Source of the DNA: Paenibacillus terrigena DSM 21567
GTDB taxonomy: Bacteria; Bacillota; Bacilli; Paenibacillales; Paenibacillaceae
Assembly: GCF_000374845.1 (NCBI RefSeq)
Contig: NZ_KB895414.1
Span: 558,001 to 622,000, forward strand
Direction: 5' to 3'
DNA: 64,000 nucleotides
Below are positions 3,164 through 19,706 of the stretch, in pieces. The notes under the pieces were generated by a model. The model searched no databases. It was given only the letters and a program-made list of their open reading frames with translations, and was not told the origin of the DNA. Each line of letters starts with the position of its first letter. Within the stretch, counting starts at the first letter, position 1. Made by a program: the position numbers and the translations under genes.

Positions 3164-3373
3164 AAGTTATCCCTCATTTCTTGATGAATCTGAGATACGC
3201 ACTAGACGCAGAAGGATGGAAGTTTGTTTCAATTTCAATATACAATTGGGCATGAGAAAACCTCTATCGAGGCTTATTTCGAAGATGAGCGACCGCGGTC
3301 AAAGGTAGGTTTTATCGCCAATAAGAAAGCTGTTTTCGGATGCCGAAAACTTATACTTTCTATTGTGGTAAGA

Positions 3374-18855: not shown

Positions 18856-18910
18856 AAGGTATTCAAGGTATTGTAGGTTTTAAAGGTTTTAAAGGTTTTA
18901 AAGGTTTTAA
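18847..18910. repeat. 9-nt minisatellite overlapping the 3' end of the GH15 gene
   Basis: Seven consecutive 9-nt units of type AAGGTTTTA run from inside the last codons of the GH15 gene into the terminator. The first units are degenerate (AAGGTGTAG, AAGGTATTC, AAGGTATTG) and the last four are essentially identical. The stop codon is the last triplet of unit 1. Confidence 0.9.
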
Positions 18911-18918
18911 AAAACCAA

Positions 18919-18962
18919 AAACCCTCGCGATGGGCCGAGATACTCGGCACCCGCGAGGGTTT
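18919..18962. terminator. Strong terminator of the glucan operon
   Basis: AAACCCTCGCG pairs with CGCGAGGGTTT, with an inner GCCGAG/CTCGGC stem, followed by TTAATTCTTTT. The stem would also work on the opposite strand. Confidence 0.85.
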
Positions 18963-18984: not shown

Positions 18985-19165
18985 AATGAAGGTTAAATAT
19001 CGACTTTTCAGCACCGAGAAGGTTGCATGAACCCGAAGAACGAGTAGCGGAGTTTAGGGATACCTAAATGAGCAACGGAGTTCGATGGGTGAATGCAAGA
19101 TTCGACGCCGACAATGCATCCTGAAAAGGCATCGTGATGGAAAGGTGATATTTAAGTTACCTTAT
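18985..19165. repeat. Nested-hairpin element, candidate structured RNA or MITE-like repeat
   Basis: An intricate inverted-repeat structure in a gene-free gap. The outer stem is TTAAATATC/GATATTTAA, then CTTTTCAG/CTGAAAAG. The inner part runs TTGCAT, GA, ACCC, GAA, GAAC, a purine-rich internal loop, TTTAGG, a GATA loop, CCTAAA, the loop again, GTTC, GAT, GGGT, GA, ATGCAA. The internal loops are symmetric (GA facing GA, GAGTAGCGGAG facing GAGCAACGGAG), as expected for a folded RNA or repeat palindrome rather than chance. There is no ORF and no terminator-like T tract. It could be a 3' UTR element of the peroxiredoxin gene or an interspersed genomic repeat. Confidence 0.6.
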
Positions 19166-19166
19166 A

Positions 19167-19706
19167 TTATAGGTTTTTGTCGCCTGGTTTCCAGTTGATC
19201 GGGCAAAGACCACCAGATTGTAGTGCTTGAAGTACACGAAGTGTCTCTTCAACGCTGCGACCTACATCGTTGTGGTTAACCACTTGGTATTTCAATTCGC
19301 CTTCTGGATCGATAATGAACAAGCCGCGAAGCGCGATACCTTCTTCTTCGATCAATACGCCGTAGTCACGAGCAACGTTCTTCGTGATGTCGGAAGCAAG
19401 TGGGAAGTTAATTTGACCCAAACCGCCAGCTTCTTTTGGAGCGTTGATCCATGCTTTGTGGCTGTGTACGGAGTCGATACTTACACCAAGAATTTCAGTG
19501 TTAAGTTTCTTGAACTCAGGAGCCGCATCGCTAAGTGCTGTAATTTCAGTTGGGCACACGAATGTGAAGTCAAGTGGGTAGAAGAAGAATACTAACCATT
19601 TGCCGCGGTAGTCATTCAGTGATGCCGCTCCGAATTTTTGTCCATCTCCTGTTGCTGTCTCCATGTTAAACTCTGGAGCTGGTCTTCCAACTAAACGTTC
19701 TGCCAT
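19167..19706 (-). CDS. 2-Cys peroxiredoxin (AhpC/TSA family)
   Basis: 179 residues, typical AhpC-type thioredoxin fold. The peroxidatic Cys51 is in FTFVCPTEI, and the resolving Cys168 is in the C-terminal GGLCPINWKPGD. It reduces H2O2 and organic hydroperoxides in the cytoplasm. No ahpF is adjacent, so the electron donor (thioredoxin or AhpF encoded elsewhere) is open. GAGGAGG precedes the ATG. A good promoter and a PerR-like box lie upstream, predicting peroxide induction. Confidence 0.92.
   Translation of the reverse strand: MAERLVGRPAPEFNMETATGDGQKFGAASLNDYRGKWLVFFFYPLDFTFVCPTEITALSDAAPEFKKLNTEILGVSIDSVHSHKAWINAPKEAGGLGQINFPLASDITKNVARDYGVLIEEEGIALRGLFIIDPEGELKYQVVNHNDVGRSVEETLRVLQALQSGGLCPINWKPGDKNL

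Follow-up and report, generated by a model that had tools for sequence, protein, structure and literature searches.

The interiors of MITEs are usually regarded as remnants of insertion sequences in the course of decay. BOX elements of Streptococcus pneumoniae are small repeats built as boxA-boxB(n)-boxC; their length at one site varies between strains, their ends resemble ISSpn2, and the proposed model is that of a MITE mobilised in trans (PMC3049150). MITEs occur as tens to hundreds of intergenic copies and give stem-loop transcripts (PMC10969869; PMC3733652), and REPs are palindromes of 20–40 bp (PMC3733652).

Here we analyse a 64,000-nt stretch of the genome of Paenibacillus terrigena DSM 21567 (contig NZ_KB895414.1), hereafter the window, which carries one copy of a dispersed, strongly folded repeat next to a peroxiredoxin gene. 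To our knowledge the repeat is undescribed within open papers and Rfam: it does not appear in the MITE, BOX and REP papers found in the open literature, subscription journals being outside the scope of the search. We consider it likely that the family is a MITE-like, non-autonomous transposable element that is moved in trans and whose transcript fold is under selection.

The window copy and the history of its site

The first-pass annotation had singled out a nested hairpin at 18985–19165. This 181-nt segment does fold strongly on the + strand (−61.0 kcal/mol, z = −5.97), with none of 200 shuffles as good, and more weakly on the − strand (−47.1 kcal/mol, z = −4.35). The facing, near-identical GA-rich segments, the apical TTTAGG-GATA-CCTAAA hairpin and the long terminal stem were all located as that annotation had claimed (Table 1). 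It had also denied any likeness to a terminator, a T-box or a tRNA, and we found no support for these either; the element precedes, and does not replace, a terminator-like hairpin. The copy is shown so that its + strand corresponds to the transcript with the conserved fold. Although its terminal stem departs from the family repeat, the two strands (AGGTTAAATATC/GATATTTAAGTT) can still pair; the target duplication of this copy is no longer legible.

Table 1. Features of the window copy and of its immediate context
Feature	Window positions	Strand	Basis
Short-form (~168-nt) copy of the dispersed element	18990..19158	+	Covariance model R1 match, 159.5 bits, model positions 1–168; BLAST family
Terminal stem, 5′ strand	18990..19008	+	Terminal inverted repeat GTTCAAAAAGTC of complete copies, here altered to AGGTTAAATATCGAC; alignments; predicted pairing with 19140–19158
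Terminal stem, 3′ strand	19140..19158	+	GACTTTTTGAAC of complete copies, here GATATTTAAGTT; alignments; predicted pairing with 18990–19008
GA-rich internal loops, 5′ side, GAGTAGCGGAG	19042..19052	+	Sequence; column conservation; flanking pairs covary A-U / G-C
GA-rich internal loops, 3′ side, GAGCAACGGAG, facing GAGTAGCGGAG	19070..19080	+	Sequence; column conservation; pair counts
Apical hairpin GTTTAGG-GATA-CCTAAAT	19052..19069	+	Alignments; pair counts
Peroxiredoxin gene (context, outside the element)	19167..19706	−	Stop codon abuts the insertion; ORF list; orthologues without the element
Terminator-like GC-rich hairpin (context, outside the element)	18920..18962		Similar hairpin at the peroxiredoxin orthologues of G001 and G002

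The element sits between the peroxiredoxin stop codon and the strong hairpin at 18920–18962, which is probably the terminator of the peroxiredoxin gene. In one congener (G002), a terminator-like hairpin directly follows the orthologous gene, without the element; in a second congener (G001), the element at this locus is reduced to its right end. This remnant and the empty site indicate that the insertion, which would have landed just past the peroxiredoxin stop codon, predates the separation of the source genome (G000) from G001 and decayed in the latter. Among 30 peroxiredoxin loci, the only significant model match was the window's own, and 27 loci besides those of G001 and G002 lack the element. 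Judged from these sequences, the element entered this site long ago and has no visible locus-specific role there.

On the far side of the hairpin, a GGTTTTAAA-type repeat (tttaaaggttttaaaggttttaaagg) forms a short array at window positions 18870–18912, right after the stop codon of a glycoside-hydrolase-like gene. No such array was seen at the G001 peroxiredoxin locus.

Copies, ends and insertion signature

BLAST returned 42 matches in the 6.36-Mb source genome, the query included, with the others at 74–87% identity; G001 has a similar number and G002 has one. Aligned with their flanks, the copies show sharp ends, GTTCAAAAAGTC on the left and GACTTTTTGAAC on the right, and these terminal inverted repeats (TIRs) are present in most copies and degenerate in the window copy. 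The exact 12-mer TIR end occurs 68 times in the source genome, against once for its reversed control, and 58 times in G001.

Inverted end pairs frame units of 24–60 bp (bare end hairpins), 168, ~240, ~280 (~282) and 374 bp, and a ~206-bp form is found in named Paenibacillus species. The longer forms consist of the short form plus arms of ~40 nt, each built around a hairpin and inserted at fixed places. Extra arms of the ~206–374-nt forms are lost as units, and perhaps gained as units too. Many copies are truncated or cut down to bare end hairpins, and among the TIR-bounded units of 24–374 bp examined, none was an ORF-bearing version of the element.

To define the insertion signature, we compared the 5–6 bp beyond the paired ends of 193 non-redundant copies. 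Perfect flanking 5-mer direct repeats were present in 54 of the 193, against 5.9 expected, and the mean match exceeded that of all 2000 shuffles. The duplications are A/T-rich, with TATAA, TAAAA and TAATA among the frequent ones. Their length is set at ~5 bp because the excess identity is concentrated on five positions, the exact edge being blurred by an overlap between target preference and the right end (CCTCT). By crude ORF calls, only 3 of 59 copies in named genomes overlap a long ORF. In anatomy the family is a MITE, with three of the defining features: TIRs, a ~5-bp target duplication, and a short, non-coding body in many dispersed copies.

Copies within strain MSJ-34 are up to 98.8% identical, a sequence likeness that suggests fairly recent movement. 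Concerted evolution was rejected, copies within a genome being no more alike than copies of G000 and G001 are to each other (0.826, 0.825 and 0.827 for the within-genome and between-genome comparisons).

Orthologous sites often carry different forms in G000 and G001 (280 versus 168, 280 versus 239, 244 versus 282, and 47 versus 168). Differing length forms or subfamilies were seen at L010/L103, L061/L095, L048/L072, L043/L080 and L045/L094. At two orthologous sites, the element is less well conserved (80–81% identity) than the sequence flanking it (87–95%). Such differing forms are not predicted by simple transposition plus decay. Tandem arrays with a period of ~182–187 bp occur at L122, L132, L172, L217, L249, L276 and G064:C1:4299437-4300148, and their junctions of ~16–17 bp are identical within each array and different between arrays. 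Together, the mixed forms at orthologous sites and the array junctions suggest that occupied sites may be revisited or converted. A separate, dapG-dapA-like locus (L026) shows the same pattern of insertion and decay as the peroxiredoxin site: in the source genome a copy lies immediately ahead of the dapA-like gene's ribosome-binding site; the corresponding G001 site (G001:C1:1168920-1169549) keeps both ends with the interior deleted, and G002 and G007 have nothing there.

Range searches used covariance model R1, and per-genome copy numbers are to be read as "at least". Within the family, the element was found in 65 of 148 genomes and 12 of 19 genera; within the order, in 105 of 246 genomes and 20 of 46 genera. 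A class-wide sample gave 27 positive genomes of 299, and outside the element's own order these comprised six genomes of one genus of another order (f32/g56), in each of which the count reached the per-genome limit of the search, plus a weak match in one further genome. Presence is patchy among related genomes, which carry from 0 to dozens of copies. In a genome scan with one genome per species, all 104 stretches recovered came from Paenibacillus. The element also occurs on plasmids of P. cellulosilyticus and P. urinalis, and a partial copy lies in Paenibacillus phage Pd_22F (MZ092003.1:85130-85207), under an annotated hypothetical protein.

A second, distinct dispersed structured repeat, AAAACCTCTATCGAGG...GATGAGCGACCGCG...GGTAGGTTTTATCGCC plus a hairpin, was noticed at window positions ~3255–3365 (+), at L182 (~1400–1750) and across L178-L189. 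This AAAACCTCTATCGAGG-type repeat has copies in G000, G001, G002 and other genera, stands three in tandem in L182, has no Rfam match, and in L060, L083, L047/L185 and L186 is found fused into long copies of the main element.

Conservation of the fold and strand preference

We assessed the fold on two alignments: A1, a MAFFT alignment of 44 copies that was not fitted to the structure, and A2, 91 copies from more genera fitted to the model. In A1, 97.0% of cells formed standard pairs and 23 of the 44 pairs showed compensatory change; shuffled controls were 90.1% paired with 10.7 pairs compensated, and slid structures were 30–47% paired. The same structure in A2 was 97.2% paired, with 29 of 44 pairs compensated. 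The apical hairpin illustrates this covariation, reading GTTTAGG/CCTAAAT, GTGTAGG/CCTACAT or GCGTAGG/CCTACGT in different copies. At the orthologous pair L013/L098, from two species, a C-G pair in one corresponds to U-A in the other, a double change.

Unpaired positions are the more constant part of the core: 51% of unpaired columns are invariant, against 28% of paired columns. The helices vary by compensation around GA-rich internal loops that do not change, which is the usual mark of functional loops. The symmetric GA-rich loops first noticed in the single sequence proved to be conserved internal loops of the fold, and they probably bind protein or make tertiary contacts.

Conservation also points to one strand. 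Wobble cells read G-U rather than A-C in 57 versus 17 cases in A1 and 122 versus 17 in A2, and pairs favouring G-U outnumber those favouring A-C by 19 to 3 (A1) and 22 to 5 (A2), an excess that may in part be bias because the structure was derived on the + strand and A2 was also fitted to the model. The consensus folds at −35.3 kcal/mol as the + strand and −16.3 kcal/mol as the complement, and the + strand gives the better fold for 41 of 44 copies. This predicted energy difference is consistent with selection on one strand.

No RNA family in Rfam 15 accounts for the fold. Rfam 15 gave no match at gathering score anywhere in the window, with weak, implausible hits in the segment at E ≤ 5, and other forms of the element had no match at E ≤ 0.3. 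Riboswitches, T-boxes, introns, ribozymes, HEARO and other known families were rejected for want of a match at gathering score.

The first-pass annotation had offered three alternatives for the segment. Two hold together: a mobile palindromic repeat recurring in Paenibacillus, as the matches in its own genome and the copies across the genus bear out, and a structured RNA element, its fold being conserved and strand-specific. The remaining one, which placed it in the peroxiredoxin 3′ UTR, found no support, given the empty G002 locus, the right-end remnant in G001 and the 29 of 30 loci with no significant match. Instead of the single copy with no covariation that the annotation had named as grounds for dropping the idea, there are many copies and, on the alignment not fitted to the structure, compensation in about half of the pairs.

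Nature of the element and comparison with known systems

Inverted ends and a 5-bp duplication fit, from established transposon biology, a DDE-type transposase acting in trans; such an enzyme, supplied elsewhere, would act on the inverted repeats and spread the copies. A survey of nearly all exact ends in G000, the unpaired ends in the nearly complete genome G001, the listed ends of G020 and the 104 named loci found no autonomous parent or transposase with these ends. Candidate TIR pairs of 1.5–4.6 kb in G020 were rejected as the parent, none framing a transposase; a 1.5-kb pair there flanks an mnmE-like gene by chance. The parent transposon may have been lost or may have diverged ends.

Upon transcription, the ends of the element could pair as the terminal stem. 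We suppose that the fold is kept because the transcript matters, either for the mobility of the element or by making insertions in transcribed regions harmless or stable. In the second case, a well-folded transcript would spare nearby genes from harm, and survival and multiplication would be limited to well-folded copies. The stronger form of the first, that the folded transcript is required for spread, for example as the RNA partner or guide of an as yet unrecognised transposase, we hold to be doubtful; if true, the family would be a mobile element that bears TIRs and depends on RNA, with hosts throughout the Paenibacillus order and, beyond it, in at least one genus of another order.

The most serious rival is that the element is purely a DNA-level mobile hairpin, whose single-stranded fold is recognised in replication or transposition, like REPs and the ends of IS200/IS605, with no RNA function. 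It would explain the full complementarity of the terminal repeats in almost every copy, as well as the parallel changes that several subfamilies show on both sides; a preference for one strand is also possible in single-stranded DNA transposition, and DNA tolerates G-T wobbles. However, REP/IS200-type single-strand transposition is not known to make target duplications, and target duplications are seen here. The internal loops and multi-arm build are, moreover, more elaborate than a hairpin signal, and it is the unpaired core positions that are most conserved. We regard this explanation as unlikely.

A multicopy, trans-acting host non-coding RNA family, spread by a transposon and kept for a cellular function, would fit the strong conservation of the fold over more than 20 genera and the compensatory change at L013/L098. 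Against it stand the patchy presence among relatives and the many copies that are truncated or bare end hairpins, and we judge it very improbable.

Slightly weaker still is a cis-regulatory RNA or mRNA-stability element of adjacent genes, the peroxiredoxin 3′ UTR being one example. The window copy adjoins a stop codon, and median gaps between element and gene are 42–65 bp, but the genes neighbouring the copies are functionally unrelated and show no preferred orientation (28/31 on the left and 35/24 on the right at 59 named-genome loci, by crude ORF calls). Since the element is absent from nearly all peroxiredoxin loci, it is not a peroxiredoxin regulator, and a locus-specific role of this kind was rejected. 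Because copies tens of bases from many genes can pass for local regulatory RNAs, as happened at this locus, the element deserves annotation.

SINE-like spread, with the folded transcript serving as template for a reverse transcriptase supplied in trans, would suit a structured non-coding RNA with short target duplications and strand-specific conservation, but we give it hardly any credence: the element ends in inverted repeats and lacks a tail, searches for an RVT_1 reverse transcriptase came up empty in G000, in the element-rich single-contig G026, and in G032 and G043, and a reverse transcriptase was rejected as driver, its presence not tracking the element.

Under the favoured reading, that of a MITE-like element with a selected transcript fold, dozens of copies per genome would preserve, across more than 20 genera, an elaborate RNA architecture specific to one strand. 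Hundreds of natural variants are then at hand for asking why a selfish DNA element needs an RNA fold.

REP/REPIN sequences with RAYT transposases are likewise dispersed, palindromic intergenic repeats found in clusters and arrays; identity with them was rejected, the present elements being 168–374 bp with target duplications rather than short palindromes. IStrons and other RNA-bearing transposons (PMC4227781) also carry a structured RNA inside a DNA transposon; unlike them, the Paenibacillus element matches no group I intron or other Rfam family and contains no IS gene. With MITEs such as Correia/NEMIS, RUP, Nezha and bcr1 (PMC10969869, PMC3733652) it shares a short, non-coding body, TIRs, a target duplication, numerous intergenic copies and a transcript predicted to form stem-loops. 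It differs from MITEs in general in that no parent insertion sequence was found and that its interior is conserved order-wide as an RNA fold, not as a transposase-gene remnant. The closest functional analogue is BOX. The two have no known sequence relation, and the published description of BOX sets them apart: the Paenibacillus element has a far larger host range, a GA-rich multi-helix core, strand-specific conservation and no known insertion-sequence partner. Both, nevertheless, are small dispersed intergenic repeats with inverted ends, a length that can differ at a given site, a predicted RNA fold and modules in varying number.
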